Shown here: positions 18,424-58,800 of the stretch, piece by piece | How positions within the stretch are numbered: position 1 is the stretch's first letter | How the letters are laid out: every line of letters starts with the position of its first letter | Origin: Clostridium sp. | GTDB lineage: Bacteria > Bacillota > Clostridia > Clostridiales > Clostridiaceae | Reading direction: 5' to 3' | Assembly: GCF_030532265.1 (NCBI RefSeq) | Contig: NZ_JAUNLM010000003.1 | Coordinates: 28,517 to 92,516 of the forward strand | DNA: 64,000 nt | Position numbers and translations under genes: made by a program | The notes under the pieces: generated by a model | Told to the model about the DNA's origin: nothing | Database searches by the model: none | The model's input: the letters and a program-made list of their open reading frames with translations, nothing else

Positions 18424-18435
18424 TTTATCATTCCT

Positions 18436-21582: not shown

Positions 21583-21592
21583 ATTAAAACTC

Positions 21593-24075: not shown

Positions 24076-24077
24076 TT

Positions 24078-24824: not shown

Positions 24825-24837
24825 AAATTATTCCTCC

Positions 24838-26080: not shown

Positions 26081-26096
26081 TTCATCACTATCCTCT

Positions 26097-26699: not shown

Positions 26700-26711
26700 A
26701 AAATCCCCTCC

Positions 26712-27794: not shown

Positions 27795-27799
27795 ATTAA

Positions 27800-28426: not shown

Positions 28427-28455
28427 TAAATTTACCTTCTTTCAAAACAATATCT

Positions 28456-29760: not shown

Positions 29761-29771
29761 ACTTTAATCTC

Positions 29772-33892: not shown

Positions 33893-33895
33893 ATG

Positions 33896-35299: not shown

Positions 35300-35321
35300 A
35301 TTAAAAAACTCCCCTTAAATT

Positions 35322-36371: not shown

Positions 36372-36385
36372 GATTTTATCACCTC

Positions 36386-36994: not shown

Positions 36995-37005
36995 TCACAT
37001 TCCTC

Positions 37006-37857
37006 CTAAACCCCTGAGTAAGCTGAAAATGCTCCATCAACTGGAATAACAACTCCATTTACAAAGCTTGATGCTTCTTCAGATACTAAGTACAATAATG
37101 TTCCTATTAACTCATCAGCTTCACCAAATCTTTTCATTGGTGTACTATTAAGTATTTTTTCTGTTCTCGCAGTTGGTGTTCCATCTTCATTAAATAATAA
37201 TTTTCTATTTTGATCTGTTACAAAAAATCCTGGTGCTATTGCATTTACTCTAACACCAACCTTTGACATATGAACTGCAAGCCATTGAGTAAAATTACTT
37301 ACTGCTGCCTTTGCACCTGAATATGCAGGTATTTTTGTAAGAGGTGTAAATGCGTTCATTGATGATATGTTAATTATTGTTGCACCTTTTTTATTTATCA
37401 TATCTTTACTAAACTCTTGTGATGGAAGTAAAGTTCCTAAGAAATTTAAGTTAAATACAAATTCTACTCCTTTAGGATCTAAATCAAAAAATGTTGTTAA
37501 ACTCTCATTTTCTATATCCTCTGCATCTAAGTACTCCTTAGTAGTAGTTCCCTTTGGGTGATTTCCACCAGCACCATTTATTAAGATATCAACTGTTCCA
37601 AATTCATTAAGTATTATTTCATGAGCTTTCTTTAAGCTTTCTTTATCTAAAACATTAGCTTCAATTCCTATTGCAATTCCGCCTTTTTCATTTATCTCTT
37701 TTGCCTTGTTATCGCAAGCTTCTTGACCTAACGCTAATATTGCAACTTTAGCTCCACATTCTGCTAAAGCATCAGCCATAGCCCCACAAAGAATTCCTGT
37801 TCCACCTGTAACAACACAAACTTTATCTTTTAATTCAATATTAAATGGTAATTTCAT
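37006..37857 (-). CDS. uxuB: D-mannonate oxidoreductase, SDR family (fructuronate reductase)
   Basis: About 283 residues from ATG 37855-37857, which has GGGGAGG at proper spacing. The upstream ATG would place the ribosome site inside the gene. SDR features are TGGTGILCGAMA, NGAGGNHP, NISSMNAF and AYSGAKAA with the catalytic Tyr and Lys. It is the SDR type of fructuronate reductase (as in Firmicutes), not the long-chain UxuB of E. coli. The role is assigned from the operon: it links uxaC and uxuA. First gene of the unit, behind a GntR-type operator. Confidence 0.88.
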   Translation of the reverse strand: MKLPFNIELKDKVCVVTGGTGILCGAMADALAECGAKVAILALGQEACDNKAKEINEKGGIAIGIEANVLDKESLKKAHEIILNEFGTVDILINGAGGNHPKGTTTKEYLDAEDIENESLTTFFDLDPKGVEFVFNLNFLGTLLPSQEFSKDMINKKGATIINISSMNAFTPLTKIPAYSGAKAAVSNFTQWLAVHMSKVGVRVNAIAPGFFVTDQNRKLLFNEDGTPTARTEKILNSTPMKRFGEADELIGTLLYLVSEEASSFVNGVVIPVDGAFSAYSGV

Positions 37858-37883
37858 TCTTATTCCTCCCCACATCTGTTATA

Positions 37884-37932
37884 CTTGTATACTAGCATAT
37901 TAATATATGAATTTCAATAGTTTTTTGTATAC
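37884..37932 (-). promoter_or_regulatory. uxuB promoter with GTATAC operator
   Basis: On the minus strand, TTGAAA (37912-37917), 17 bases, TAGTAT (37889-37894). The -10 box is covered by the palindromic CTTGTATACTAG (37884-37895). A second GTATAC lies upstream at 37927-37932. It sits in ATGAAAATGTATACA, one base from a CcpA-site consensus. This block of about 60 bp is nearly repeated at 44832-44880. Confidence 0.75.
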
Positions 37933-38078
37933 ATTTTCATAAATATTATAAATTTTTTTAATAAAGTTTATATAATATTAATAAGTAACTAAATTCAATA
38001 CTATTATCTATTTACAATAAATCATTTAGCATTGTAATCTAAGCTATTTAAAATACATTTTTATTTATATAAAATAAA

Positions 38079-38118
38079 AGCACTTAAAATTATTTTTTAA
38101 TCAATAATTTTAAGTGCT
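38079..38118 (-). terminator. Terminator of the GntR regulator gene
   Basis: 16-bp perfect stem AGCACTTAAAATTATT (38079-38094) / AATAATTTTAAGTGCT (38103-38118), T-rich tail on the minus strand. It lies just after the regulator stop. Confidence 0.85.
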
Positions 38119-38125
38119 AAATAAT

Positions 38126-38821
38126 TTATTTTTTATTTTTTATATAACATGCTACATCACTATTTTCTTCTATTAACTTTTCCCACTCCTTAATTGGAGA
38201 CTTTATATGATTAAATACAAATTCCTCAATTACGTCCTTATTTTTATTTTTTATAATATCTAAATACATCATATGCTGATCAATTAAAAACCCTTTATCA
38301 ACTTTCATTTCTGCTAATAATCTCATTCTATTATAATGGGTGCTTATATTACTTATAGATTCCCATATATTATTTTTTGATACTCCTTTAAAAAGTAATC
38401 TATGAAATTCATTATCCAAATTATGAAATTCAAGTAAATTATCAGCCCTATTTTTAGTTATCTTTTGAGCAAATAAACATTTCTCTAATTCTATTAGAAC
38501 ATCTTCTGAAAAATTATCACAAGCTTCCATTAATACTTCTTTTTCCAAATTATATCTCATAAAAACTGCTTCCTCTATTATTTTCCAGTCTATTAATGAT
38601 ACATATGTTCCAGCTTGAGGCTTAACTTCAATTAATTTTTCTCCTTTTAATTTTATTAAAACTTCTCTTATAGGCGTTCTTGAAACATTTAATTTTTTTG
38701 CTAAATCTGATTCACTTATTAATTCTTCTGGCTTTAATTCTAAACACATTATATTATCTTTTAATACTCTATATACATACTCCTTCCCCGTCTCTTTATC
38801 TAACTTTTTATAAATAATCAA
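38126..38821 (-). CDS. GntR-family (FadR/FCD) regulator of glucuronate genes
   Basis: 231 residues. The N-terminal winged helix-turn-helix has ISESDLAKKLNVSRTPIREVLIKLKGEKLIEV, the GntR signature. The C-terminal FCD ligand domain (about 85-215) carries the conserved His in HNLDNEFHRLLF and DQHMMYLDIIK. FCD regulators of this kind (UxuR, ExuR, KdgR-like) bind hexuronate intermediates. The start is TTG with AGGGGG eight bases upstream. It lies between the two catabolic units, and its own promoter holds the same GTATAC operator, indicating autoregulation. Confidence 0.92.
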   Translation of the reverse strand: MIIYKKLDKETGKEYVYRVLKDNIMCLELKPEELISESDLAKKLNVSRTPIREVLIKLKGEKLIEVKPQAGTYVSLIDWKIIEEAVFMRYNLEKEVLMEACDNFSEDVLIELEKCLFAQKITKNRADNLLEFHNLDNEFHRLLFKGVSKNNIWESISNISTHYNRMRLLAEMKVDKGFLIDQHMMYLDIIKNKNKDVIEEFVFNHIKSPIKEWEKLIEENSDVACYIKNKK

Positions 38822-38866
38822 TTATAATACCCCCTATTATAGTATCTAAATTATTCAATACTATCT

Positions 38867-38897
38867 CCAGTATACTAGTATGATAGCTATTATACCA
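38867..38897 (-). promoter_or_regulatory. Promoter and operator of the GntR regulator gene
   Basis: On the minus strand an extended -10, TGGTATAAT (38889-38897), is followed downstream by CTAGTATACTGG (38867-38878). This shares CTAGTATAC with the uxuB and HAD operators. No convincing -35 box. Confidence 0.7.
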
Positions 38898-38986
38898 TAA
38901 AAACTTAGATATACATAATATTCATACGTTCAGAATATTTGAAAATTTTATATATTTTAAGGCAAATTTTTAATTATATAAATTAT

Positions 38987-39018
38987 AAAAAGGACTTTTT
39001 TTATTAAAAGTCCTTTTT
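38987..39018 (-). terminator. Terminator after uidA
   Basis: Stem AAAAAGGACTTTT (38987-38999) / AAAAGTCCTTTTT (39006-39018), T tract on the minus strand. It ends 13 bases from the uidA stop. The hairpin is almost the same as that at 32372-32405. Confidence 0.85.
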
Positions 39019-39031
39019 ATATTATTTAAAA

Positions 39032-40831
39032 TTATTTTTTATATCCAAACTCTGGAATATTTGTCCATCTCTCACGTAATGAATGAGCTATCATTTTAGG
39101 TCTTCTTTCTCTTGTAAATATACCTTTTTTATTTCCTTGAACTCTTATAATCCCCTGACTTGTAGCAAAGTCAGCAAAATTCCATACTTGTTCCCCAACA
39201 AAGTTTTTGCATTTATCTACTACTTCATGGTTTGCCTTATAGTATTCTACTTGATATTCTTCAGTAAACATAACTGGAAGTGTATCATGCATACCAGCAA
39301 CAGTATCAGCTCCATATTCAGTGAACATAATAGGTTTATTTGGGCATCTTTTTTCCCAACCATTTAGTTCTTCTTGAAGCATTCTCTTAGCTTCTTCTAA
39401 ATCTCCACCTGCAACATACCATCCATAGTATCTATTAAGACATAATACATCTACAATATCTCCAACTTTACATCTATCTGGAGTAGACATTAAATATGTT
39501 ACCACTGTAACAGGTCTCTTTTGTGGATCTAGTTCCTTTGTTAATTTAATTAATGGTTCAAAATATTCCTTTGCACCTTCTGAATCTGAATCTGGCTCAT
39601 TTGCTACAGACCACATTACTACAGATGGATGATTTTTATCTCTTTTAACTAGTTCTTTTAATATTTGTTCATGTGCTTCTTTAGTTCCTATTTCTTTCCA
39701 TGTATCTCTTTTAACACTTTCACCAAATAATCCTGTAGCCATAAAGTTTAAATGTAATCCAACTGCTGGAGTTTCATCTATTACAACTATTCCTTCTCTA
39801 TCTGCAAGTCTCATTATTTCTTCTGAATATGGATAATGTGAAGTTCTAAATGAATTTGCACCAATCCACTTCATTAAATTAAAGTCTTTTACATTAATAG
39901 CTTCATTAAATCCTCTTCCATTAACATGTGAATCTTCATGTTTACCAAATCCTTTAAAATAGAAAGGCTTATTATTTATTAAAAACTTACCCTCTTTAAC
40001 TTCTACTGTTCTTACTCCAAACTCTTCTGAATATGTGTCAATTAAAATATTATCCTTAACTAAATCAACTTTTAATTTATATAAATAAGCATTCATTGGT
40101 TCCCATAATTTAACGTCTTTTATAACAACTTGTCCATTTTTCCCTTTAGAAGTTGCTACTATATTATTATCTTCATCAATTATTGATACGTTAATATCTG
40201 CTTCTCCAATAAAATTAACATCATAGTCTACATAACCATTTGTATCTTCAAATTTAGTTACAATAGTTAAATCATCAACATAAGTTTTTGGTGTTGTATA
40301 AATTTTAACTGGTCTATGAATTCCTGCGTAATTGAAAAAGTCAAAATTAACAAGATTTTTCATAACCTTTTTGCCGTTAACTTCAGTTTCTTTTAACATT
40401 CCAACTGGTAGTGTAGTTTCATCAATTATATTGTTTACAGCAACAGTTAATCTATTTTCACCAGAAACTAATAGTTCATTTATTTCAGCTTCAAAAGGAG
40501 TAAAACCACCTTTGTGTTCAACTAAAAATTTACCATTTAAATATACTTTTGCTTCATGTGTTGCTGAACCAAATCTTAATACTATTCTTTCATCTAATAA
40601 GCTTTTATTAAGAGTAAAGCTTCTTTCGTACCAAACCCAACCAACATGATCTCTTACTTCTTCAGCTTCAACTAAATCATTATATGATGATGGTACTGCC
40701 ATTTTTATTGTATCTTTTAAGTTTGATTCATACCATTTTTCAGTAAATCCATTTCCCTTATCTAATTTAAAATTCCATATACCATTTAAGTCTATAACAC
40801 TTCTTGATTCTGTCATTATTGGATATAACAT
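39032..40831 (-). CDS. uidA: Beta-glucuronidase (GH2)
   Basis: 599 residues with the three GH2 parts: sugar-binding domain (about 1-185), Ig-like domain (about 186-280) and TIM barrel. The acid/base is Glu412 in SVANEPDS and the nucleophile Glu505 in MFTEYGAD. Asn567 and Lys569 in GNKKG form the N-x-K motif that selects glucuronate. Residues about 360-382 form a long insertion that aligns with Loop 1, seen in gut enzymes acting on small drug glucuronides. No signal peptide, so cytoplasmic. GGGAGG precedes the ATG. Last gene of the kdgK-GH3-uidA unit. Confidence 0.97.
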
Positions 40832-40875
40832 AATAAAAAACCTCCCAAATTTTCTTTATTTATATAATTTATTTA

Positions 40876-42630
40876 TTATAATCTAGTTTCCCATCTTCCG
40901 CAGAATACAGTATCATTATATTCTCCTTCAAATTCTTCTTCACCTTTTATTTTCTTTATAGTTTCTTTTAATACAGTTCTTGTTGAACCATATGCATTTA
41001 TAAATGTTTTCATCATAGGTAAATCAAACAAATTAGTAGTTTGATTTAATGATACACATATTGTTGGAAGTTCCCTAACATACCAAGGTATTTCATTACC
41101 ATGTCCTATTGACCACTGAACTCTAACAACATTTTCTTGACAATATCCTTTCATATTTACAAACATAATAACTGCATCATAATTACTTTTCATTTCTTTT
41201 ACACTTTCGCTAAACATTGAATTCATTATATCTTTGATATTATGACCATTCTTAGCTGATAAATCATGATAAGATTCATGCATATCAACATTAAATCCAG
41301 CTTCTTCAAGTTCTTCTTTTATAGCTTCTTTTGTAGAATTATTTCCCATAATCATATCAAGTGGTTGAGGATTAGTTATATAATAAACTTTTAATCTTTT
41401 ATGAGTTTCTGGTTTTAAAGGAAGATTATTCTCTGTATCTTTAACTAAAGTTACACTTCTTTTTGCTGCATCAACAGCTAAATTTTTATGTTCTTCACAA
41501 CCTAATAAATTTAAATCTTCCTTAGGAGGCATCATTTCTCCTCTTTCTTTTTCTTTGTGTAATCCTATTGATGCTTTTAATCCTAAAATTCTCTTTAAAG
41601 CATTTTCAAGTCTTTCCTCTGTAATTATTCCTTCTTTATATCCATTCATCATATATTCAAAATCTTCTTCTGGATGATGGAAGAATAAAAACATATCACA
41701 CCCTGCAGCAATAGCTCTTGGAACTTGCTCTTTTCTTGGCATAGCACTTGTTAAACCTAGCATATGAGATGCATCAGTTACTATTAGCCCATTAAATCCT
41801 AATTGATCTCTTAATAAATTTTGTAATATTTCTGGTGATAGTGTTGCTGGTTTTATTTCAGCATCAGTAATTTCTGGAATAAACTTTCTTGAATATGAAG
41901 GTAAAGCTATATGTCCTATCATTATACTTTTAAGACCATCTTCTATTAATCCTTTATAAACCTTTCCAAAACTATTATCCCATTCCTCACAACTTTGATC
42001 ATTTACTCCCATAAGTAAATGCTGATCTCTTTCTTCTACTCCATCTCCTGGAAAATGCTTAGTACAAGCTATCATTTTACTTTCTTCAAGTCCTTTTATA
42101 TACGCTCTTGAATATTCTAATACCCTATCTGGATCATTTCCATAAGATCTAGTATTTATTATTGTATTTCTCCAATTTAAAAATATATCTGATACTGGCC
42201 CAAACGCCCAGTTACATCCTACTGCTGCAGATTCTCTACCTGAAACATATCCTACATTATAAGCTACTTGATTGTCTTTAACAGCTCCAGCGGCTGCTTG
42301 AGTTGCTATATAAGTCCCTCCTTGAGCTGCCCCATCTCCACCTGATTCACAATTACAAGCTACTAATAAAGGTAATTTAGATGCTTCTTTATATTTCTTT
42401 ATTTGCTCATATACATCAGAAGCTTTTCCCCCCATATATCTTGCAGCACCAGGTTGATATTTCTTTATTGTTTCTACAGCTGATTTACCTCCATCTAGAG
42501 TTTTATCCATTATTACAAATAATTGACCTATTTTCTCTTCTATTGTCATATTACTTATAGTATCTTCTACCCACTTTATATCTTCATCTGATAAATAAAA
42601 TGGTTTTCCTTTTAAATCTACTTCTCTCAT
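40876..42630 (-). CDS. GH3 glycosidase, NagZ-like catalytic site
   Basis: 584 residues: TIM barrel (about 1-350) plus a C-terminal alpha/beta domain (about 380-560), as in two-domain NagZ. The nucleophile is Asp286 in LIVTDASHML. The loop KHFPGDG (191-197) with Asp202-x-His204 keeps the Asp-His dyad of beta-N-acetylhexosaminidases, although the usual H-G-x-T part is changed to D-G-V-E. No signal peptide. It lies 22 bases from kdgK and 45 from uidA. It may remove an N-acetylhexosamine or another residue next to glucuronate; the substrate is inferred. Confidence 0.85.
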   Translation of the reverse strand: MREVDLKGKPFYLSDEDIKWVEDTISNMTIEEKIGQLFVIMDKTLDGGKSAVETIKKYQPGAARYMGGKASDVYEQIKKYKEASKLPLLVACNCESGGDGAAQGGTYIATQAAAGAVKDNQVAYNVGYVSGRESAAVGCNWAFGPVSDIFLNWRNTIINTRSYGNDPDRVLEYSRAYIKGLEESKMIACTKHFPGDGVEERDQHLLMGVNDQSCEEWDNSFGKVYKGLIEDGLKSIMIGHIALPSYSRKFIPEITDAEIKPATLSPEILQNLLRDQLGFNGLIVTDASHMLGLTSAMPRKEQVPRAIAAGCDMFLFFHHPEEDFEYMMNGYKEGIITEERLENALKRILGLKASIGLHKEKERGEMMPPKEDLNLLGCEEHKNLAVDAAKRSVTLVKDTENNLPLKPETHKRLKVYYITNPQPLDMIMGNNSTKEAIKEELEEAGFNVDMHESYHDLSAKNGHNIKDIMNSMFSESVKEMKSNYDAVIMFVNMKGYCQENVVRVQWSIGHGNEIPWYVRELPTICVSLNQTTNLFDLPMMKTFINAYGSTRTVLKETIKKIKGEEEFEGEYNDTVFCGRWETRL

Positions 42631-42651
42631 ATGTTATTCCCCTTCTTTAAT

Positions 42652-43674
42652 TTATCTTTTTATATTACATAGCCCACTATCCATTAATGATTCTACTGTA
42701 TACTCATCAACAAGATTTATATCGCCTAATATTGAATGTTTTAATGAACTAGAACATATTCCAAATTCAATAATTCTTTCCTCTTTCATCTCTTTTAAAA
42801 TCCCATGTAAAACACCTGCTGTAAATGCATCACCTCCACCAACTCTATCTAAAATATCAAAGGTATATTCATTAGACTTAAAAAGCTTCTTCCCATTAAA
42901 TAAATATCCTTTTAATGTATTATTATTTATTGAATTTACTTTTCTTCTAGTACATGCAGTATATTTTAAATTTGGATATTTTTTAAATAATTCTTTATAA
43001 AGCTCTTCTAAATTTTCTTCAAATTCTAAATTTTTATCTTCAAATTTTAATATATTAATCATATCTAGATGACCTAAAAAAGCAAAATCAATATATGGTA
43101 ATATCTCTTTTAAAAAATTTCCCGCTTCTTCAATAGACCATAATTTATTTCTATAGTTAGAATCATAGGATACTAGTATACCCTTTTCCTTACAAGCTTT
43201 AATAAAATCAATTAAAAATTCATATAATTCATTACTTAAAGCTGGAGTTATACCAGATAAATGAACAATTCCTACATTTTCTAACATTTTATTTATATTA
43301 AACTCATCCTTAGAAGCCATAGATATTGCTGAATACTTTCTATCATATATAACTTCTGTACTCCTTAATCCATGTCCTATTTCTGAATAATATATACCTA
43401 ATCTACCTTCACCTAAAATAATATCTTGAATGTCAACATTATATCCTCTAAATTTATTTATAACCTTTTGTCCTAAATAATTATTAGGAAGCTTTGTTAC
43501 AAACTTAGTATTGTGTCCAAACATAGCAAGACTAGCTATTACATTAGCTTCTCCTCCTGAATAAACTGCATCAAAAGAATTTGCTTGGATTATCTTTTGA
43601 TTATTTGGAGGTGTAAGTCTTAGCATTATTTCACCAAAACCTAAAACTTTTTTATCCTTTAAAGATAACTTCAT
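42652..43674 (-). CDS. kdgK: 2-keto-3-deoxygluconate kinase
   Basis: About 340 residues, PfkB carbohydrate kinase family. It phosphorylates KDG to KDPG, the substrate of KdgA. GEIMLRLTPP at the start, YSGGEANVIASLAMFG, and the ATP/catalytic site DRVGGGDAFTAGVLHG are typical. Two adjacent ATG codons fit; I use 43672-43674 because GGGAGG then has seven-base spacing. It is first of the kdgK-GH3-uidA unit, apart from the other pathway genes but on the same strand. Confidence 0.93.
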   Translation of the reverse strand: MKLSLKDKKVLGFGEIMLRLTPPNNQKIIQANSFDAVYSGGEANVIASLAMFGHNTKFVTKLPNNYLGQKVINKFRGYNVDIQDIILGEGRLGIYYSEIGHGLRSTEVIYDRKYSAISMASKDEFNINKMLENVGIVHLSGITPALSNELYEFLIDFIKACKEKGILVSYDSNYRNKLWSIEEAGNFLKEILPYIDFAFLGHLDMINILKFEDKNLEFEENLEELYKELFKKYPNLKYTACTRRKVNSINNNTLKGYLFNGKKLFKSNEYTFDILDRVGGGDAFTAGVLHGILKEMKEERIIEFGICSSSLKHSILGDINLVDEYTVESLMDSGLCNIKR

Positions 43675-43726
43675 CATACTTCCTCCCACCAAACTTTATT
43701 AAAGTTTTGTATTCCTTATTTCACAA

Positions 43727-47149: not shown

Positions 47150-47530
47150 TTAGCATCTTATTACTTCAATCATATATCCATCTGGATCTTTTACAAAAAA
47201 ATACTTAGGTGCTTCTCCTGGTAATCCCTTTAAATCTGTAACTTCATATCCTAATTTTATATGTTTGTCTCTCATACCTTCTAAATCTTTAGTACCAATT
47301 GCTATGTGACTAAATCCATTTCCAAGTTCATAAGGCTTTTCAGGATTATAATTGTAAGTTAACTCTATTTCATATCCATCTTTTTCATTTGATAAATATA
47401 CTAAAGTAAACTTATGCTCCTTAAAATCTTTTCTTCTAGTTTCTATAAGCCCTAAAGCTTCCTTGTAAAACTTTAAAGACTTTTCTAAATCCATTACTCT
47501 TATACATGTGTGTAACATTTTAACTCCCAT
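47150..47530 (-). CDS. gloA: Lactoylglutathione lyase-like VOC protein
   Basis: 126 residues, vicinal oxygen chelate fold made of two beta-alpha-beta repeats. Metal-site positions are visible: His in KMLHTCIRV, Glu in YEIELTY, His in FSHIAIG and Glu in GYMIEVI. This is the full ligand set of glyoxalase I, which detoxifies methylglyoxal. Since clostridia generally lack glutathione, another thiol or substrate is likely. GAGGAG precedes the ATG. Single gene. Confidence 0.85.
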   Translation of the reverse strand: MGVKMLHTCIRVMDLEKSLKFYKEALGLIETRRKDFKEHKFTLVYLSNEKDGYEIELTYNYNPEKPYELGNGFSHIAIGTKDLEGMRDKHIKLGYEVTDLKGLPGEAPKYFFVKDPDGYMIEVIRC

Positions 47531-49340: not shown

Positions 49341-49374
49341 AAAAAGGCTTTTCCAATTAAGGAAAAGCCTTTTT
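49341..49374 (-). terminator. Terminator of the hydroxyacid/glycyl radical operon
   Basis: Stem AAAAAGGCTTTTCC (49341-49354) / GGAAAAGCCTTTTT (49361-49374), 6-nt loop, T-rich tail on the minus strand. It lies 69 bases after the dehydrogenase stop. Confidence 0.85.
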
Positions 49375-49442
49375 TCTTAAAATCTTATACCATTTAAAAA
49401 ATATCCCAAATTAATAATTAACATCTTTATTTTTAAATTTTA

Positions 49443-50843
49443 TTATTCACATACCTTACCTGGATTTAAAATATTTTTAGGGTCAAAAGTTAATTTAATA
49501 CCCTTCATAATGCCAACTAATTCATCACTTAATGATTCATTTAAATATTCTTTCTTAGCAAATCCGATTCCGTGTTCTCCAGATACTTGTCCTTTTAATT
49601 CTTTTGATTTATCATACATACATTGCATAACTTTTTGAAGTTTTTCACCCCAAGTATTTTCATTTAACTTATCTCTTAATATATAAATATGAAGGTTTCC
49701 ATCACCAGCATGTCCAAAACTCTTAATTCTAATATCATATTCTTTTTCTAACTTATTAGTATACTTAACAAATTCAGCAACTTTATTTCTTGGTACAACT
49801 ACATCAACTTCATCCATTTCAGTAGTTGAAGCTTTTATAGCTTCTAAGAAAGCTCCTCTTGCAGACCAAATTGATTCTTGTCTTTCTTCAGTATCTGATA
49901 TAAATGCATCTATAGCACCTTCTTTAAGACATATATCCGCAACCTTTTCATAATCTTTTTCTATTTCTTCTCTTGAATTTCCATCAAAAGTTAAAAGTAA
50001 ATATGCATCTGAAGTATGATCTGGGAATTTCTTTCCTAAATATTCTTCTGCTGCAACTATTGCTTCTTTTTGCATAAATTCTACAGCTGTTGGAATTGAT
50101 TTTGATTTAATTATCTTAGGAACTGTTTCTATTGCAGTTTCTAAGTTTTCAAAAGGAACAAGTAAACTAATTGCTTTTTTAGGTAATGGTAATAATTTAA
50201 GTGTAGCTTTTGTAATTATTGCTAAAGTACCTTCAGCACCTACAATTAAATCTTTAATACTATATCCTGAACTATTTTTAACAACTTTACCACCTAAATT
50301 CATTACATGTCCATTAGGTAATACAACCTCTAAACCTCTTACGTAATCTCTAGTTACTCCATATTTAACAGCTCTCATACCACCTGCATTTGTACTAATA
50401 TTTCCTCCGATAGTTGCTGTTTTTTCTCCTGGATCTGGTGGATAGAATAAATCATGTTCCTCTACAAACTTTGCAATTTCCATTAATAACACACCAGGCT
50501 CTACAGTTAATGTTAAATTTTCTTCATCAAGTTCTAATATTTTATTCATACCACTTAAATCTAAAACTATTCCTTTATGAATAGCAACTGCTGCTCCAAC
50601 AAGTCCTGTTCCTGATCCTCTTGCAGTTACTGGAATGTTATGTTCATAAGCATATTTCATTATTTCTGATACTTCTTCTGTAGTTAAAGCTTTAACTACT
50701 ATATCAGGAAATTCTTTTATAGAGCCTAATTCATCGTGACTATAATCTTCACTTATATTTTCCCCATAAAATACTCTATCACTGTCATTAATTATATTTT
50801 CAATATCTTTTATAGTATTTTCTGTAACTTTTCCGTAACTCAT
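49443..50843 (-). CDS. FAD-binding 2-hydroxyacid dehydrogenase (GlcD/LctD-like)
   Basis: 466 residues, PCMH/vanillyl-alcohol-oxidase fold. The FAD-binding loop is [15 protein letters not shown], then [17 protein letters not shown]. The C-terminal FAD-oxidase domain has [14 protein letters not shown] with a candidate metal/catalytic His, and SGEHGIG. It closely matches the dehydrogenase of electron-confurcating lactate dehydrogenase (LctD with LctB/LctC in Acetobacterium woodii), which oxidises lactate to pyruvate. Glycolate or another 2-hydroxyacid is possible. It starts two bases after etfA ends. AGGGGG is upstream of the ATG. Confidence 0.9.
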
Positions 50844-50845
50844 GA

Positions 50846-52036
50846 TTATTCCCCCTTGCTTTCCTTTATTTCTTCTATTAATTTTGGAACTATTTCATAT
50901 ATATCTCCAACTATTCCATAGTGAGCTACTTTAAATATTGGTGCCTTTTCATCTTTGTTTATTGCAAATATATAATCTGAATTATTCATACCTGCTGTAA
51001 ATTGTACAGCTCCAGATACACCACAAGTTATTATAAGCTTTGGTCTTACAGTTCTACCACTTAATCCAACTTGCTTTTTAGCATCTTCCCATCCAGCTTC
51101 TATTAATGGTCTTGTTACTGCAACTTCTCCACCTAATAAATCTGCAAGTTCTTGTATCATTTCCATATCCTTTTCTGATTTTACAGCTCTACCTGCAACT
51201 ACTAATACATCAGCTTCTGATATACTATGTTCTTTTTCCTTTTCAACAACTTCTTTTACTTCTATATTTGAATTTAATTTTGAAGAATCTATATCACATA
51301 TTGTTAATTTACCACTAACATTTTCACTTCTTTCAGGTGCTGACATTACTTTATATCTAACTGTTGCAAGTTGTGGTCTTGAATTTGGAGTTACTATTTG
51401 GGCCATTATATTACCACCAAATGCTGGTCTTATTTGAACTAAATCTGTATTTTCTTTTATATCTAATATTGTACAGTCTGCTGTTAACCCAGTTCTACAT
51501 CTTGCAGCAACTCTTGGAGCTAATGATCTACCAACTGTTGTTGCACCAACAAGAAGCACAGCTGGTTTAACCTTCTTTATAAAGTCATCAACTACTGCTG
51601 CATATGGTTCTATTCTGAAGTTTTTAAGTTCTTTTTTATCATATACCATTACTTCATCTACACCATAGTGTAATAATTCTTCTGCTTTTTCTTTTATATT
51701 ACTTCCTATAAATAAACAATAAACTTTTTGATTTACCTTATCTGCAAGTTCTTTTGCCTTACCAATTAATTCAAATGTAACTGGATGTATATCTCCATCT
51801 ACATGGTCTACATATACAGCTACTCCATTCCATTTGCTTTTATCTATTTTAACTACTTCTTCCTCTACGTATTCTACTGCTCCTTTAGGACCTTTTCTTA
51901 CACACATTTTACACATTTTACAATTTGCATTTATTTCAAGTTTTCCGTCCTTTTCTTCTAAAGCACCAAATGGACAAATTTTTATAATTTCTTCTATGTT
52001 GCCTACTTTATCTTGATTTATTACTAACTTTGCCAT
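50846..52036 (-). CDS. etfA: Electron transfer flavoprotein alpha subunit with N-terminal iron-sulphur domain
   Basis: 396 residues, longer than ordinary EtfA (about 320-340) because of a ferredoxin-like extension. Cys21 in ICPFGAL plus Cys39, Cys42 and Cys45 in CKMCKMC give exactly four ligands, enough for one [4Fe-4S] cluster; the position where a second cluster would take its Cys is Gly (RKGPKGA). The C-terminal domain has the FAD-binding [23 protein letters not shown]. It pairs with EtfB and feeds or draws electrons from the dehydrogenase. Bifurcation or confurcation with ferredoxin and NAD is inferred from LctBCD. Confidence 0.93.
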
Positions 52037-52049
52037 AATTTACTCCCCC

Positions 52050-52838
52050 TTAAATAAACTTTAATTCCTTTAATTTTTTAGTCATTTTTTCACTTATCTC
52101 ATCTGAACTACCTGTCCACATTTCATGGTCATCATTTGATTCTGGTGGGAATATTCTTTCAACTTGAGTAGGAGATCCATTTAATCCATATTTTTTTTCA
52201 TTTTTATCTTCAAAATCCTTTAAAGATATAACTCTTATTTCTCTATCCTTAGACTCTAAACTTCTTTTATATGAAGGTAATCTTGGTTCAAATATATCTT
52301 TTTCTACTGTTATAAGACATGGGTATTTAACATCTACAATTTCTATTGTATTTGGCATGTCCATTTCCACTGTTATAAAATCATCACTTACTTTTAATAT
52401 TTTTCTTACATTTGCAACATGAGGAATTTGTAGATATTCTGCCATTTCAGGTCCAACCTGTGCTGTATCTCCATCAGTTGTTTGTTTACCACAAATTATC
52501 AAATCAAAATCTCCACATTGTCTTATTCCTTGTGATAGTGTATAAGATGTTGCAAGTACATCAGCTCCTGCAAATTTTCTATCTGAAACTAAAGTTCCTT
52601 CATCAGCTCCCATTGCAAAAGCTTCTTTTATTACTTCCATAGCTTGAGGTGGTCCCATGCTTATTACCTTTATAACTCCACCTTTTTCTTCTTTTATATT
52701 TAATGCAGTTTCTAAGGCATATAAATCATAAGGATTCATTTTTGTATCTATTCCATCCCTTTTTAATACTCCTGTTTTTTCATCAACTTCAACTTTTGAT
52801 GTTCCTGGTACTTGTTTAATACAAACTATAGTATTCAT
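52050..52838 (-). CDS. etfB: Electron transfer flavoprotein beta subunit
   Basis: 262 residues. [24 protein letters not shown] at the start, [31 protein letters not shown] and [22 protein letters not shown] are EtfB signatures. The SMGP and TDGDTAQVG segments bind nucleotide/flavin in the bifurcating type, where beta-FAD splits electrons. It forms the heterodimer with EtfA encoded 14 bases downstream. Confidence 0.95.
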
Positions 52839-52907
52839 AAATTTTCACACCTTTCTATTTTAAAGTAATATACAAGCTACTAATAACGTTTACAGTAATA
52901 TCAGATT

Positions 52908-53837
52908 TTAAACAGCTCCTATATTACACTTTATACCTTCTTTTTCTACAATATTTTTTAGTTTTTCCATAGTTTCTTTATTAGGACTAACTATATTTTC
53001 TGACATTTTATAATCTATTCCTAAACATTCATATTTATTTACTCCTAATCTGTGATAAGGTAATATATGAATTTCAACTAAATTCTTTATAGATTTTGAA
53101 AACTTAGCTATTTCTCTAACACTTTCCTCATCACAATTAAAATTTGGAATTATAGGAACTCTTATTATTATATTTTTGCATAAATTATCTATTAACCTTA
53201 TATTATTAAGTATTTTTTTATTACTTTGTCCAACAAATTTTATATGTTTTTCATCATTTATGCTTTTAATATCTATTAATGCTAAATCCACAAAAGGAAA
53301 AACTTCATTTATAGCAGATTCATCCGCATAAGCAGTTGTTTCTATTGCTGTATTTATTAAAGATTGCTTACAGCATTTAAGTAATTCTCTTGCAAATTTA
53401 GGTTGCATTAAAGGCTCACCTCCTGATAAGGTAATTCCACCTCCTGATCTCCTAAATTGTACAAAATCTTTTTTTACTATATCTAATACTTCTTTTATAG
53501 TTTTATATTCACCAACTTCTACTAAAGAATTAGAATAACATACATCTAAACATTCCTTACAGTTGATACATTTTTCTTTATTTATTATATAATTATTTTT
53601 AAAATCTATAGCATCATGCTCGCATGCATTTTCACAGTTATGGCAACCTATACAGTTTTTACTATTAAACATCAATTCTTCAAATTTATGTTGAGACTCT
53701 GGATTACTACACCATAAACATCTCAATGGACATCCTTTAAAGAAAACAATTGTTCTAAGTCCTGGTCCATCATTTACTGAAAATCTCTGTATATTAAATA
53801 TTAAACCTTTTTCTTCATTGTTAAGTATATTGCTCAT
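52908..53837 (-). CDS. Glycyl radical enzyme activating enzyme (radical SAM)
   Basis: 309 residues. The radical SAM cluster motif is the CxxxCxxC at Cys36, Cys40 and Cys43 (GCPLRCLWCSNPE). An inserted ferredoxin domain carries two more CxxCxxCxxxC sets (62/65/68/72 and 90/93/96/100), typical of activases of dehydratase-type glycyl radical enzymes rather than the short PFL activase. GGGITLSGGEPLMQP is the SAM-binding GGE motif. It would place the radical on Gly779 of the enzyme encoded immediately upstream. Confidence 0.93.
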   Translation of the reverse strand: MSNILNNEEKGLIFNIQRFSVNDGPGLRTIVFFKGCPLRCLWCSNPESQHKFEELMFNSKNCIGCHNCENACEHDAIDFKNNYIINKEKCINCKECLDVCYSNSLVEVGEYKTIKEVLDIVKKDFVQFRRSGGGITLSGGEPLMQPKFARELLKCCKQSLINTAIETTAYADESAINEVFPFVDLALIDIKSINDEKHIKFVGQSNKKILNNIRLIDNLCKNIIIRVPIIPNFNCDEESVREIAKFSKSIKNLVEIHILPYHRLGVNKYECLGIDYKMSENIVSPNKETMEKLKNIVEKEGIKCNIGAV

Positions 53838-53897
53838 ATTATTTACCCTTCTTAAGTAAATTTTTATATTTAATTTATAAAATTAATATTATAAAAC

Positions 53898-56309
53898 TTA
53901 TAATTCTAATTCTGTTCTTTTTATAATGTCATCTTGAACACCTTTATCTAAGCATATAAATTGAGCACTATATCCTGCAACTCTAACTATTAAGTCTCTA
54001 TATTTTTCAGGATGCTTTTGTGCTTCAAGTAAAGTTTCTTTACTTATTATATTAAATTGCATATGCATTCCTTTTTTATCAAAATAGCTTCTAATTAAAT
54101 TCATTAAATTTTTAAGACCATTATCACCTTCAAGTGTTGAAGGATTAAATTTTTGATTTAGTAATGTTCCACTTGGAGCACTAAAATGATCTAATTTTGC
54201 TACTGAATTTGCAGCTGCTGTTGGTCCATTCACATCAGTTCCTCTAGTTGGAGAAACTCCATCTGCAATTGGTTCTCCTGAATTTCTACCATCAGGTGTT
54301 GCACCAACTAATGAACCTAAATGTACATTATTTGATACTGGATATAATCCTGGTAAAAATCTTCCACCACGTTGATTATAATGTTTAAGAACTTCTTCAC
54401 AATATATAAGAGAACCTTCCCTTGTATATTCATCTACTTCGTCTATATCATTACCAAACTTAGGTGCTCTATTTAAAAGCATTTGTCTAATATTTTCATA
54501 TTTCATTTTTTTCTCTTTATCTTCTAAATCTTTACCAAAATTACTATTAAGTGCTTCTTTTAATTCTTCTAAAGAAATTTTCTTTTCATCAAATACTAAT
54601 TTTTTTATTGCCATAAATGAATTTCCGACATTAGCTACACCAACTCCTAAAGGACCTGAGAAGCGATAATGTCCTCCACCTTCTTGTATTGATTTTCCTA
54701 AAGAAATACAATCATCTAACATACATGATAAAAATGGAAGTGGAGCTCTTTCTCTATGTGCAATATCTACGCAGTTATCTGCTGCTACCATATGGTTAAC
54801 AAAGAAATGTATTTGTTTTTTATATGCTTCAATTAAATCGTCAATACTTTCAAACTCAGCAAAACTTTTAGTAGTTGATCCAACTTTCTTTCCATTTTCA
54901 GTTCCATCATTAATTGCAATTTCTAATACTTTAGCTAAGTTAAAGAATGCTGCATCATACCATCCATCTGTTTTACCAGGTTTTTGTGGCTCAACACATC
55001 CAACTATTCCATAATCTCTTGCATCTTCTAAAGTTAATCCTTGATTTACAAGCATAGGAATTATTACTTCATCATTATAAAAAGCAGGTAATCCAGTTCC
55101 TAATCTAGCTACTTCGCATGCTCTTATTAAAAATTCATCAGGTGAATTATTCCAAACCCTAACTGATAAAGATGGCTGTGGTAATTTTAAACTTCCTGTT
55201 GCATCCATACACAAATAAGTTAAATCATTTGTTGCATCCTTTCCATCAGGAGTTTGTCCACCAACAATTAAATTTTGGAACATTGAATATCCACTAAAGG
55301 CTTTAGTTGTAGTTTCATCACGAACTTTTGTTAAGTCATTAAACTTAACCCATAAGCAATGAAGCACTTCTCTATCAAAATCTTTTAATTTTTCTGAATT
55401 TTCCAAATCTTTTTTGTAAAAAGGATACATATATTGGTCAAAACGTGCTGGAGAAATAGCATGGCCATTTGATTCTAAACTAATTATTAATTGAATGAAC
55501 CAAAAAGATTGACAAGCTTCATAAAAAGTTTCAGCTGGATATTCAGGAACCTTATTACAAATTCTTGATATCTCTAATAATTCTTTTTTCCTTGTTTCAT
55601 CTTTTTCTTTACTTGCTAATTCTTTTGCAAGATTTGAATATCTATGTGCATAATCAATTGCTGCATTACAACAAATTAAAATAGCATCCCAAAACATTTT
55701 CTTATGAATATATTCTGGATCACTTTCTTTTGACTTTTTAATTTGTTCTTTTACCTCTTTAATTATTCCAGAAAATCCGTTTTTCAAAACTTTTTCATAA
55801 TCAACTGATATATGACCAAGACCATTAAAATGATAATTTGCAACAGTAAATACATTAGCTTTCATTGCATTTTTTGTTGATTCTGGCATATAAGCTGTAG
55901 CGAGTTCACTAACAGTTTTACCATCCCAGTACTTAAATATTTCTTTCAATTCACTTTTAGTTTCTTCTGAAATTTTAAATGCATCTGATGTTCTTTTCTC
56001 TAATTTATCGAATTCATCTACAAGCCATTTGTTTGAAAATTCTGGATAAACTTGAGCTGATCTTGGATTTTTAGTTAAACTTCCAACAATAAGTTCTCCA
56101 TTTCTTATTGTTATAGGCATTTTTTCTAAAAGAGCTTTTAACGCTTTTGCTTTTCTTATTATTATAGGTTCATTTTCTGTTTTCTTGAAAGAATCAGTTA
56201 AAATTCTAGCTCTATCTACTTCAATTTCAGGAAAAGCAGATAAAATTTCTTCTTTTAAAATTTCCACTCTCTTTGTAGGTTTTTCAAATCCTCTTTGTAA
56301 AGTTTCCAC
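53898..56309 (-). CDS. Glycyl radical enzyme, diol-dehydratase-like, unknown substrate
   Basis: 803 residues. The radical site is Gly779 in RVAGYSAQF. The thiyl Cys438 lies in GCVEPQKPGKTDGW, with Glu440 two residues on, as in glycerol, propanediol, choline and hydroxyproline enzymes, and unlike the Cys-Cys pair of true pyruvate formate-lyase. By my recollection of Clostridium butyricum glycerol dehydratase, His166, His283 and Asp452 match its substrate-binding residues His164, His281 and Asp447, but Ser282 becomes Ala284. Annotation as formate acetyltransferase would be wrong. The start is GTG with GGGGAG upstream. It is flanked by a lactate-type permease and its activase. Confidence 0.88.
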   Translation of the reverse strand: METLQRGFEKPTKRVEILKEEILSAFPEIEVDRARILTDSFKKTENEPIIIRKAKALKALLEKMPITIRNGELIVGSLTKNPRSAQVYPEFSNKWLVDEFDKLEKRTSDAFKISEETKSELKEIFKYWDGKTVSELATAYMPESTKNAMKANVFTVANYHFNGLGHISVDYEKVLKNGFSGIIKEVKEQIKKSKESDPEYIHKKMFWDAILICCNAAIDYAHRYSNLAKELASKEKDETRKKELLEISRICNKVPEYPAETFYEACQSFWFIQLIISLESNGHAISPARFDQYMYPFYKKDLENSEKLKDFDREVLHCLWVKFNDLTKVRDETTTKAFSGYSMFQNLIVGGQTPDGKDATNDLTYLCMDATGSLKLPQPSLSVRVWNNSPDEFLIRACEVARLGTGLPAFYNDEVIIPMLVNQGLTLEDARDYGIVGCVEPQKPGKTDGWYDAAFFNLAKVLEIAINDGTENGKKVGSTTKSFAEFESIDDLIEAYKKQIHFFVNHMVAADNCVDIAHRERAPLPFLSCMLDDCISLGKSIQEGGGHYRFSGPLGVGVANVGNSFMAIKKLVFDEKKISLEELKEALNSNFGKDLEDKEKKMKYENIRQMLLNRAPKFGNDIDEVDEYTREGSLIYCEEVLKHYNQRGGRFLPGLYPVSNNVHLGSLVGATPDGRNSGEPIADGVSPTRGTDVNGPTAAANSVAKLDHFSAPSGTLLNQKFNPSTLEGDNGLKNLMNLIRSYFDKKGMHMQFNIISKETLLEAQKHPEKYRDLIVRVAGYSAQFICLDKGVQDDIIKRTELEL

Positions 56310-56365
56310 TTAAATCTCCCCTATCTTTTAAAATAATTAATTTTAATTATTTTTATTTTTTTAAA

Positions 56366-57886
56366 TTAAAACCCAAATACGGGACCTAATAAATAAGTTA
56401 AAAGTCCAAACAATATTACAAATACCAAGCAAAACTTAAGTGTTGAATTTAATATTTTTCCTTCTTCTCCAACAAGACCTGTTGCAGCAGTAGCAACTGC
56501 TATACTTTGAGGAGATATCATTTTACCAGCAGTTGCTCCGCAAGTATTTGCTGCAGCAAGCCAATATGAATTCAAGTGTAAAGTTTTTGCAACTTCAACT
56601 TGAAGCTCCCCAAATAAAACGTTTGCAGAGGTATCGCTACCTGTTACAAAGGTTCCAAGTGCCCCTATTAATGGTGCAATTATTGGATAAAATCCTCCTG
56701 TTATTGCTACTAACACTATTGACATTGATTTAATCATTCCACTATAGCCCATAACTTTAGCTAGAGCTACTATAGACATTATTGTTATGGCCGTTTTACC
56801 CATTTGTTTACATGTTTTGAGAAGAACTAATGATATCTCTTTAAATTTTGCACCTTGAATTATTCCTCCTATGTATGTTGCTATTATTATTAGTGTTCCT
56901 GGAGTTGCAAGCCATAAAAATGTATAAGGCTTTGCACCAGTTCCTCTGTAAATTTTTATTGATGTTTTCACTAAGGATAACTTTTCATTAATAAATGGGA
57001 AAAGTGATGAAGTGAAAAATATAAATAAAAATACTAATATAAATGGCGTCCAAGCCCAAATCTTCTTTTTTGTAGTTAAACTATTATTTTTACTTGCTGA
57101 TTCTTTATAAAATAACTTAGCAACTAAAACCGTTAAAGCCATTGAAAGAATTGAGCCTAATATAGCTGGTAATTCAGCTCCAATATACTTAGCAATTAAA
57201 ACTTGTGGTAATGCAAAGGATATTCCTGAAACTAATGAAATTCCTAAAACTCCTTTTATTGCCTTAACCGACTTTCCTGTTATCATAACTAATATAATTG
57301 GAACTACAATAATAAATAGAAATAATTGAATACTTACTGCATAGGATAATTCGTTTACATTTAAATTAGCTACTTGAGCAAGAGTTGTTACTGGAAGCCC
57401 TATAGCTCCAAATGCTGTAGGAGTTGTATTTGCTATTAAACAAATTATTGCCGCAAAAAGTGGATTAAATCCAAGCCCAGCCATTATACTAGCTGGTATA
57501 GCAACAGCAGTTCCAAACCCTGCAATAGCTTCTAAAAATCCTCCAAATCCCCATGCAAGAATTAATACCAGAATTCTTTTATCAGTAGTTATTTCCATCA
57601 TCATTTTTTTAATGATTTCCATACTACCAGTATGCAACGACAAATTATAAGTAAATACCGCAGCTATAATTACTATCATTATAGGCCAAATAGCAAGTGC
57701 TATGCCTTCTAATGCTGCTGATAATGACATATCAAACGGCATTTTCCAAATAGTAATCGAAAGTATTATAGTAACTATTAAAGTTATAGGACAAATTTTA
57801 TATCCTGCAACTTTAAATACACCAAGTGCTACCATAAGCAGAATTATTGGTAATAATGCAATTATAAATTTTAAATAAATATTCAT
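56366..57886 (-). CDS. lctP: L-lactate permease family transporter
   Basis: About 506 residues, 12-14 membrane helices, LctP family. Typical segments are GFGGFLEAIAGFGTAVAIPASIM near residue 120, ANTTPTAFGAIGLPV, and the C-terminal GTFVTGSDTSANVLFGELQ with NTCGATAGKMISPQSIAVA. Known members import L-/D-lactate or glycolate with a proton. I use ATG 57884-57886 because AAGGAGG then sits correctly upstream; the first ATG precedes the ribosome site. First gene of the operon. Confidence 0.93.
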   Translation of the reverse strand: MNIYLKFIIALLPIILLMVALGVFKVAGYKICPITLIVTIILSITIWKMPFDMSLSAALEGIALAIWPIMIVIIAAVFTYNLSLHTGSMEIIKKMMMEITTDKRILVLILAWGFGGFLEAIAGFGTAVAIPASIMAGLGFNPLFAAIICLIANTTPTAFGAIGLPVTTLAQVANLNVNELSYAVSIQLFLFIIVVPIILVMITGKSVKAIKGVLGISLVSGISFALPQVLIAKYIGAELPAILGSILSMALTVLVAKLFYKESASKNNSLTTKKKIWAWTPFILVFLFIFFTSSLFPFINEKLSLVKTSIKIYRGTGAKPYTFLWLATPGTLIIIATYIGGIIQGAKFKEISLVLLKTCKQMGKTAITIMSIVALAKVMGYSGMIKSMSIVLVAITGGFYPIIAPLIGALGTFVTGSDTSANVLFGELQVEVAKTLHLNSYWLAAANTCGATAGKMISPQSIAVATAATGLVGEEGKILNSTLKFCLVFVILFGLLTYLLGPVFGF

Positions 57887-57916
57887 CATTTCCTCCTTCA
57901 TTATATATACTAACTA

Positions 57917-57970
57917 GGTGGTATGACCAATTTTCAATTTTATTGTACTCCTTTATTCTAGGTATTTCCA
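57917..57970 (-). promoter_or_regulatory. Promoter and GntR-type operator of the permease/glycyl radical operon
   Basis: On the minus strand, TGGAAA (57965-57970), 17 bases, TACAAT (57942-57947). Downstream lies ATTGGTCATACCACC, whose palindrome TGGTnnnACCA (57919-57929) matches the known PdhR/LldR-type FadR-family operator ATTGGTnnnACCAAT. A CcpA-like TTGTAAACGTATTAACA lies upstream at 57999-58015, with one mismatch. Confidence 0.7.
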
Positions 57971-58013
57971 GTATTGTTATTTTTTTAACACATATTTTTT
58001 GTAAACGTATTAA

Positions 58014-58048
58014 CAAAAAATAAGGGAGTCATCAAATATGACTCCCTT
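58014..58048 (-). terminator. Terminator of the second GntR regulator gene
   Basis: Stem AAGGGAGTCAT (58022-58032) / ATGACTCCCTT (58038-58048), T run on the minus strand. It lies 60 bases after the regulator stop and separates it from the permease operon. Confidence 0.85.
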
Positions 58049-58107
58049 TTAAGAACAAATTATTAACTTTTAATTTCCATTAGTTTCCTTATTACTTTGT
58101 TAATTAT

Positions 58108-58800
58108 TTAACACTTTATATATTCTTTTATTAATTTAAAGTGTTCTTTAAGTGCTATATACGCTTTATAATCATCTTTTGCCTCAAGTGCAAGATAAAT
58201 TCTTTCATGTAAGTCTAATAATTTCTCTTTATTTTCACTACTTTCTAATATATTTTTTCTTAAGTCAGTTATAAATTTGTCCATTAATTGTGATACTACA
58301 TTTAAAAGATTTGTTATAAGTTCATTGTTAGCTGCTTTTACTATAGTATAGTGAAATTCTTTATCTATAATTACATTGTTCGATTCTATATCACTTTCCT
58401 TAAACATATTAATTAAATTCTTTAATTTTTCAAGTTCTTTTTCATTTATTCTTTTAGCTGATAACATTATAGTAGAAAGTTCTAAAACTTCTCTAAGTTC
58501 ATATATATCCATTGATGATCCTTGTTTTAACATAAACATCATTGATAATGGCTCTAAAAGTATATCATTAAAATCTTTTTTTATATAATTTCCCGCACCT
58601 TGTTTGCTTTCTATTAAACCGATTACTTCAAGAGATCTTATAGCTTCTCTTATTGAAGCCCTACTTACACTCAGATCTTCTGCCATAGCTCTTTCTGTTG
58701 GTAACTTTTCTCCCATTTTAAGTTCACCATCTTCAACCATATTTTTTATATGTTCTACTACCTGCTCATAAACCTTTGTGCTTTTTGTTGAACTATTCAT
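58108..58800 (-). CDS. GntR-family (FadR/FCD) regulator, LldR/PdhR-like
   Basis: 230 residues. Winged helix start KVYEQVVEHIKNMVEDGELKMGEKLPTERAMAEDLSVSRASIREAIRSLEVIGLIESKQGAGNY is the classic FadR-subgroup DNA-binding domain. The C-terminal FCD domain has DKEFHYTIVKAANN and LDLHERIYLALEAKD with the metal-binding His residues. The 'PTERxMAxxLxVSRxxVREAIRxL' pattern recognises TGGTnnnACCA sites, and such a site is at the downstream operon promoter. It probably senses the imported acid. It has its own terminator, so it is transcribed alone. Confidence 0.93.
   Translation of the reverse strand: MNSSTKSTKVYEQVVEHIKNMVEDGELKMGEKLPTERAMAEDLSVSRASIREAIRSLEVIGLIESKQGAGNYIKKDFNDILLEPLSMMFMLKQGSSMDIYELREVLELSTIMLSAKRINEKELEKLKNLINMFKESDIESNNVIIDKEFHYTIVKAANNELITNLLNVVSQLMDKFITDLRKNILESSENKEKLLDLHERIYLALEAKDDYKAYIALKEHFKLIKEYIKC

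Follow-up and report, generated by a model that had tools for sequence, protein, structure and literature searches.

Why should an operon for lactate oxidation carry an oxygen-sensitive glycyl radical enzyme (GRE)? The question is raised by a 64,000-nucleotide stretch of Clostridium sp. DNA (RefSeq assembly GCF_030532265.1, contig NZ_JAUNLM010000003.1, positions 28,517 to 92,516; hereafter the window), in which an earlier note, made from the letters alone, had placed six co-directional genes and read them as possibly a new hydroxy-acid pathway. The six open reading frames are there, all on the minus strand and open throughout, and profile matches bear out their families: the lactate permease LctP, the GRE, its activase, and LctB (EtfB), LctC (Fe-S EtfA) and LctD (GlcD-like), separated in that order by 56, 60, 69, 13 and 2 bp. 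The explanation that we favor, at a probability of roughly 45%, is that a normal lactate operon received a GRE-activase cassette, that the substrate dehydrated by the GRE is a small diol but not glycerol, and that the resulting carbonyl drains the NADH gained from lactate. Its observed part comprises the gene content, the clade of the GRE, the residue changes, the insertion and the exchange: an uncharacterized GRE subfamily is truly inserted in a known operon, is kept there in three genomes and has spread by recombination.

The lactate part of the locus is conventional. LctB (52050..52838, minus strand, as are all genes of the locus), LctC (50846..52036; EtfA with an N-terminal Fe-S domain) and LctD (49443..50843; FAD lactate dehydrogenase) have as their best solved relatives, over nearly the whole length, the subunits of Acetobacterium woodii 7qh2 (7qh2_B, 360 bits; 7qh2_A, 537 bits; 7qh2_C, 699 bits, whole length), an LctBCD enzyme that converts lactate to pyruvate and yields NADH. 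LctP (56366..57889; PF02652) exceeds the cut-off of TIGR00795 with 458.8 bits; its frame opens at 57901, and the likelier true start is 57889, directly behind AGGAGG. The earlier note had the six genes right and left out an upstream gene for a GntR/FCD-family regulator of LldR type (58108..58800; FCD and GntR domains, with LldR as the top NCBIfam equivalog, under its cut-off); between this gene and LctP a scan found a terminator-like hairpin (58022..58048, minus strand; stem of 11 pairs and a T tract). Judged by homology, the regulator, LctP and LctBCD, five of the seven proteins, are those of an ordinary electron-confurcating lactate operon, and a domain search detected no lactate racemase among the seven. 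The draft genome (92.7% complete) has one LctP and one strong LctD, and the window operon is therefore its only such one as far as the draft goes.

That LctBCD and the permease form a complete lactate system, to which the GRE is extra, agrees with the operons of relatives. Among 16 comparison loci fetched around LctD or LctP, nine have the regulator, full-length LctP, LctB, LctC and LctD (L193-L198, L200, L202 and L208), three have LctP fragments upstream (L199, L201 and L207, with a full LctP downstream in L199 as well), four lack LctP (L203-L206), and none has a GRE between lct genes; a regulator homologue precedes LctP in most of the GRE-less loci. One relative (G033; L200 8150-9513, minus strand) carries between LctP and LctB, at the place of the window's GRE pair, a 429-codon frame that is nickel-type lactate racemase-like by eye, so this slot takes different inserts. 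In another (G024) a different GRE adjoins an lct operon, a YjjI-type enzyme (PF11230) lying with a radical-SAM protein directly upstream of the lactate regulator (L193 2062-4387, plus strand), while genome G143 carries three LctD genes (71-72% identity) in about 15 kb (G143:C1:239894-255089) and G139 likewise has three, on two contigs.

Comparison with these operons indicates that the GRE-activase pair is an insertion into an ordinary lct operon and a newcomer there. Against the GRE-containing operon of Eubacterium multiforme, DNA identity is 58-67% where alignable, up to about position 57,800, then 82-94% over the remainder of LctP and over the GRE, 78-89% over the activase and 70-88% over LctB-LctC-LctD. 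The GRE-less operon of G024 gives values of 70-88% over the regulator and the start of LctP, 62-68% in mid-LctP and 85-98% over LctB-LctC-LctD. The proteins follow suit, with identities to E. multiforme and G024, respectively, of 89 and 71% (LctP), 93 and 78% (GRE), 83 and 96% (LctB) and 76 and 94% (LctD), and synonymous divergence (dS) from E. multiforme is 0.52 for the GRE versus 0.93 for LctB and 0.84 for LctD, while from G024 it is 0.26 for LctB versus 1.03 for the GRE. Since the DNA mosaic, the protein identities and dS agree, a block that begins inside LctP and ends with the activase (53000..57700, minus strand), common to E. multiforme and foreign to its flanks, has been exchanged between lineages; the lct genes on either side likely served as homologous arms.

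The GRE (53898..56309; 803 residues, GTG start; PF01228 and PF02901) bears the marks of the eliminase class, namely the glycyl loop RVAGYSA (G779), the Cys loop GCVE with its CXE motif (C438 and E440) and an adjoining radical-SAM GRE-activating enzyme (52908..53837; TIGR02494, 369 bits, over cut-off), and its chemistry is likely that of a dehydratase. The best-scoring solved relative is 1r8w (1156 bits, 63% identity), the B12-independent glycerol dehydratase of Clostridium butyricum (DhaB1/DhaB2); 9rco (1009 bits, 56%) and the diol dehydratase 5i2a (969 bits, 54%) follow. In trees of 114 and 124 sequences with all three as tips, the window GRE sits in a clade of its own (13, then 16 members; support 1.0 in the larger tree), near but outside the four-member 1r8w clade (support 1.0), and the order among this clade, the 1r8w clade and the glycerol-dehydratase-like DhaT group is weakly supported (0.48). 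Within NCBIfam only the broad subfamily TIGR01774 exceeded its own cut-off; the hydroxyproline, choline, sulfopropanediol, decarboxylase and formate-lyase equivalogs were rejected, every match falling under the curated cut-off. The earlier note's placement of the GRE among diol dehydratases is upheld, and its cluster holds no characterized member among those placed (the three tips and the NCBIfam equivalogs). We found clade members in 12 of 68 genomes of the genus and in four more among 206 family-search genomes (a set that includes the genus); a class-wide search of 391 sampled genomes, with two candidates scored in each, gave none of at least 64% identity beyond those known. Selection on the pair is purifying (dN/dS 0.07-0.15 for the GRE and 0.16-0.31 for the activase). 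By these comparisons the GRE is a close but distinct relative of B12-independent glycerol dehydratase, in an unnamed clade.

Several further GREs were encountered. In another genus a GRE 92% identical and an activase about 80% identical to the window pair lie with no lct or PocR genes adjoining (L241 220-3623, minus strand), through either recent transfer or a binning error. The window's own genome has a second diol-dehydratase-type GRE, on the propanediol-dehydratase side of the tree (L131 6000-8510, minus strand), in whose surroundings no microcompartment gene was recognized by eye. On its contig C37 a GRE for which only TIGR01774 was exceeded lies with an activase beside a fructose-6-phosphate-aldolase-like gene (L242 6300-10375, minus strand), a set that resembles the 1,5-anhydroglucitol-6-phosphate pathway, and on contig C49 the choline lyase CutC (1648 bits versus a cut-off of 1050) stands in a cluster that is microcompartment-like by eye (L243 3985-15999, plus strand).

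The active site combines retained catalysis with altered surroundings. The residues quoted in the earlier note (Cys438, Glu440, His166, His283 and Asp452) are right in the protein's own numbering, and the catalytic Cys, Glu, two His and Asp are kept in all 16 clade members. With 90 diol-dehydratase GREs as the conservation reference and 18 more distant GREs set aside, 15 of the 297 positions conserved in at least 90% of the reference are replaced in 16/16 members, seven of them invariant in 90/90 (Ser282, Ser329, His446, Asn544, Gln549, Ser696 and Asn697, in glycerol dehydratase numbering); Ser282, His446 and Gln549 are thus kept in none of the clade versus all of the others. Ser282 adjoins the catalytic His281 and His446 adjoins Asp447, and Ser282 is, we assume, a contact of glycerol in the glycerol dehydratase crystal structure. 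The counterpart of Gln549 in 4-hydroxyphenylacetate decarboxylase is Glu637 (numbered via the 2y8n alignment), and in a published homology model of indoleacetate decarboxylase Leu616, in place of Glu637, packs on the indole ring (PMC6181972); one of the seven invariant positions replaced in the clade thus corresponds to a site described as substrate-facing in the model of a related enzyme. A benzylsuccinate-synthase relative was considered as a pocket map and given up, with one sub-cut-off match in 391 genomes, and the 4-hydroxyphenylacetate decarboxylase was taken instead. Several clade-wide changes run in a less polar direction (Ser282 to Ala, Gln549 to Leu, and Gln636, which is Gln in 80/108 non-clade sequences, to Leu or Ile), and a clade-specific arginine, Arg549 in the protein's own numbering, replaces an otherwise conserved Asn. 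In an alignment with four hydroxyproline dehydratase (HypD) proteins over the curated cut-off, the carboxylate ligands Ser334, Tyr450 and Thr645, as given in PMC7077986, correspond to Phe, Phe and Ser in the clade, the Ser being shared with glycerol dehydratase, and Asp278 and Asp339 correspond to His and Met. Because conserved residues are altered, the diol is probably not glycerol. The absence of the HypD carboxylate ligands and the shift to less polar side chains lead us to prefer a diol with a less polar side over an acid, although Arg549 speaks against this; we put the chances that the substrate is neither glycerol nor 1,2-propanediol at slightly better than even.

Where the clade members stand in their genomes bears directly on the lactate link. 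The six-gene order, when surveyed, was seen in only three genomes, the GRE lying inside the lct operon in 3/16 clade loci: the window, Clostridium sp. Ade.TY (G030) and E. multiforme (G017). In G064 the GRE lies directly behind LctB-LctC-LctD, with a gap of about 100 bp and no terminator by scan. In 10/16 it lies behind a PocR-type two-component system (G024, G065, G067, G028, G006, G001, G047, G168, G139 and G143), a PocR-domain histidine kinase with an AraC-type response regulator, whose domains were tested for the G024 pair, the others being homologues; the G028 kinase has internal stops. The remaining two (G011 and G198) have neither context. The GRE pair and the lct operon of G024 are about 10 kb apart on the same contig. 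By eye, the 1,3-propanediol dehydrogenase DhaT adjoins the GRE in 0/16 clade loci versus 7/8 glycerol-dehydratase-type loci, PocR-type sensors occur near the latter as well, and beside the window GRE no microcompartment shell gene was recognized, as the earlier note had said.

The earlier note had put the six genes behind one promoter with a FadR-type operator and before one terminator. An LldR/FadR-type putative operator, TTGGTCATACCA, matches at 57919..57930 (minus strand), and a terminator-like inverted repeat, AAAAGGCTTTTCC/GGAAAAGCCTTTT, is visible by eye 3' of LctD at about 49342..49376, though the scan did not list it; the promoter scan carries no weight, with 63 promoter-like sites versus 59.6 expected. 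The operator pattern TTGGTNNNACCA occurs once in the window versus 0.26 expected, and at least once in 19/100 shuffles, so that chance could account for the count as such; its recurrence in lct promoters is the better evidence. We scanned 13 of these (the window, the two other GRE-containing operons and ten GRE-less ones), and TTGGTNNNACCAA, with at most one mismatch, occurs in 10/13, including 8/10 of the GRE-less ones. A regulon search with the operator gave an exact match only at the lct site and one 1-mismatch site elsewhere. Sites resembling those of the redox regulator Rex number 6 in 64 kb versus 3.7 expected, three of the six being at this locus (57974-57991 with two mismatches, 57999-58016 with one, and 58097-58114, which overlaps the regulator gene end), and with at most two mismatches at least one occurs in 8/13 lct promoters. 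In 13 stretches upstream of clade GREs outside lct operons, Rex-like sites (two mismatches) were found in three and LldR-type sites (one mismatch) in one. An argument for the GRE from the Rex sites was dropped, as they are shared with GRE-less lct promoters.

Under the favored explanation, lactate would enter through LctP under LldR-type control and, by homology, LctBCD would oxidize it to pyruvate with electron confurcation, giving NADH. In the GRE, Cys438 would abstract hydrogen from a carbinol carbon whose hydroxyl is deprotonated by Glu440, and the neighboring hydroxyl would be expelled on the His283/Asp452 side, turning a small vicinal diol into an aldehyde or ketone that general alcohol dehydrogenases could reduce with the NADH made from lactate. 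Donor and acceptor halves of one fermentation would then stand under one lactate-responsive promoter. This coupling, which we infer from gene order only, falls somewhat short of even odds.

A number of results weigh against this explanation. No lct gene adjoins the GRE in 12/16 clade loci, and the lactate coupling is therefore a local invention at most; a TATAAT in the G064 gap, seen by eye, may give the GRE there its own promoter. The Rex-like and LldR-like sites say nothing about the GRE because they are present in GRE-less lct operons too, and the GRE-containing E. multiforme operon has no Rex-like site, no TTGGTNNNACCAA and no regulator gene just upstream. In tests that ignore phylogeny, DhaT (at least 85% identity) is found in 8/12 genus genomes with the GRE versus 1/56 without (Fisher P 6e-7), which suits a glycerol role. 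The corresponding figures for LctP (fragments counted) are 10/12 versus 5/56 (P 6e-7) and those for LctD, which count in favor of the explanation, 12/12 versus 28/56 (P 8e-4), with LctD also in 4/4 GRE genomes outside the genus. The substrate proposed for the GRE is itself read from its sequence. Control groups changed at 5 (4 sequences), 12 (5), 4 (9) and 10 (2) positions, and the clade's changed positions are not significantly clustered in sequence near catalytic residues (P 0.09 to 0.23), so that the count of clade changes is only suggestive; the single residue changes say more than their number.

The alternative that survives best, though we regard it as somewhat unlikely, is that an ordinary B12-independent dehydratase of glycerol or 1,2-propanediol has moved into the lactate operon as an NADH sink and that its residue changes are drift. 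Glycerol dehydratase is by far the best solved relative, the catalytic residues are retained, the changes are unclustered, PocR-type sensors stand upstream of most clade members as they do near glycerol-dehydratase-type loci, and the co-occurrence with DhaT is evidence for a glycerol link that we cannot explain away. Drift is nonetheless hard to square with seven otherwise invariant positions changed in every clade member, and G001, G017 and G065 hold this GRE and a glycerol-dehydratase type (62-63% identical) side by side. DhaT, moreover, does not adjoin the GRE, and the window's own genome has genes of a B12-dependent enzyme. Clostridium sp. Ade.TY has an intact B12-dependent glycerol/diol dehydratase operon, with large, medium and small subunits and reactivase over family cut-offs; DhaT, a MIP-family channel and a PocR-type sensor of its own accompany it, and the same genes are split over contigs C54 and C42 of the window's genome (reactivase tested). 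The window also contains an anaerobic cobalamin synthesis cluster (16918-30605, minus strand), in which 10/10 tested proteins exceed their family cut-offs (cobyric acid synthase, CbiB, precorrin-6A reductase, CbiH, CbiG, CbiF, CbiL, CbiT, CbiD and a,c-diamide synthase), the rest being assigned by eye. With B12-dependent dehydratase genes and a cobalamin cluster in hand, there is no obvious need for a B12-free glycerol backup, which weakens that reading.

It is unlikely that the pair has no functional tie to lactate and was brought in by recombination between lct genes and kept for a separate role. The mosaic is clean, breaking inside LctP and at LctB, and the rarity of the embedded order, like the many clade loci without an lct neighbor, fits such an accident. 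Against it, the GRE that lies between permease and LctB is an open frame in three species and evolves there under purifying selection; a scan found no terminator-like site between these genes in the window, the one of the three operons that it covered; G064 shows a second, different adjacency to LctBCD; and in G024 the GRE is about 10 kb from the lct operon on one contig.

The pathway proposed in the earlier note, in which LctP takes up a hydroxy acid such as glycerate and the GRE dehydrates it to pyruvate or malonate semialdehyde, has in its favor that the LctP family includes glycolate permease (a model matched under its cut-off), that part of LctP moved along with the GRE, that Arg549 is clade-specific, and that no alcohol or aldehyde dehydrogenase lies in the same gene string at loci viewed by eye, the nearest being, in L119, an Fe-alcohol dehydrogenase at a distance of 3.5 kb downstream and, in L120, a DkgA-like reductase that lies 1 kb past the sensor gene. 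It is nevertheless very unlikely, as permease and LctBCD are ordinary and occur without the GRE in relatives, the relatives of the GRE mostly have other surroundings, with a PocR-type sensor in front, like glycerol dehydratase, and no LctP adjoining, the LctP block has the look of homologous recombination, and the residues lend no support, the HypD carboxylate ligands being replaced, several changes being to less polar residues and no source that we found placing Arg549 in the pocket.

Elsewhere in the window, a glyoxalase/VOC-type protein, lactoylglutathione-lyase-like by eye, is encoded 1.9 kb downstream of the lactate operon (47150-47530, minus strand) and likewise downstream in Clostridium sp. 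Ade.TY (L117 17715-18095), and none was seen in the E. multiforme stretch L127. Farther on are hexuronate/glucuronide catabolism genes, assigned by eye (32489-43692, minus strand): transporter, uronate isomerase, mannonate dehydratase, KDPG aldolase, mannonate oxidoreductase, GntR regulator, beta-glucuronidase, glycosidase and sugar kinase.

GRE eliminases have repeatedly opened unexpected substrates, among them choline, hydroxyproline and isethionate. The present clade is so near to glycerol dehydratase that the two can be compared directly in structure, and a short list of fixed positions sets it apart, so that a small screen should find its substrate. The lactate link, if true, would mean that the co-fermentation of a donor and an acceptor is wired in the genes, and would exemplify the spread of a metabolic cassette by recombination in homologous operon genes. 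It is doubtful that all of this holds together, namely a clade of dehydratases for a substrate used by no characterized GRE, wired to lactate oxidation as a regulated donor-acceptor unit that spreads through lct genes. Searches of the open-licence PMC literature gave no title or abstract opening that suggested a GRE within a lactate operon.

With HypD the GRE shares the eliminase class and an Ala at the Ser282 position, but it has no counterparts of HypD Asp278, Ser334, Asp339 and Tyr450 and scores 700 bits versus the HypD cut-off of 1100. Propanediol-type GREs are mostly microcompartment-linked; 5i2a and the 9rco-type GREs have the same catalytic residues as the window GRE, but they form separate branches and retain Ser282, His446, Asn544 and Gln549. 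With glycerol dehydratase (1r8w) the likeness extends to the CXE motif, counterparts of His164, His281, Asp447, Tyr640 and Gly763, an activase next door and, in most clade relatives, the PocR-type sensor and AraC-type response regulator upstream, whereas Ser282Ala, His446Tyr, Asn544Arg, Gln549Leu, Gln636Leu/Ile and others set the clade apart in 16/16 members, and the window GRE has no adjoining DhaT and is placed under a lactate promoter. The operon around it has all three subunits of A. woodii LctBCD, the Fe-S domain of LctC included, and differs from that system in having a GRE and its activase between the permease and LctB.

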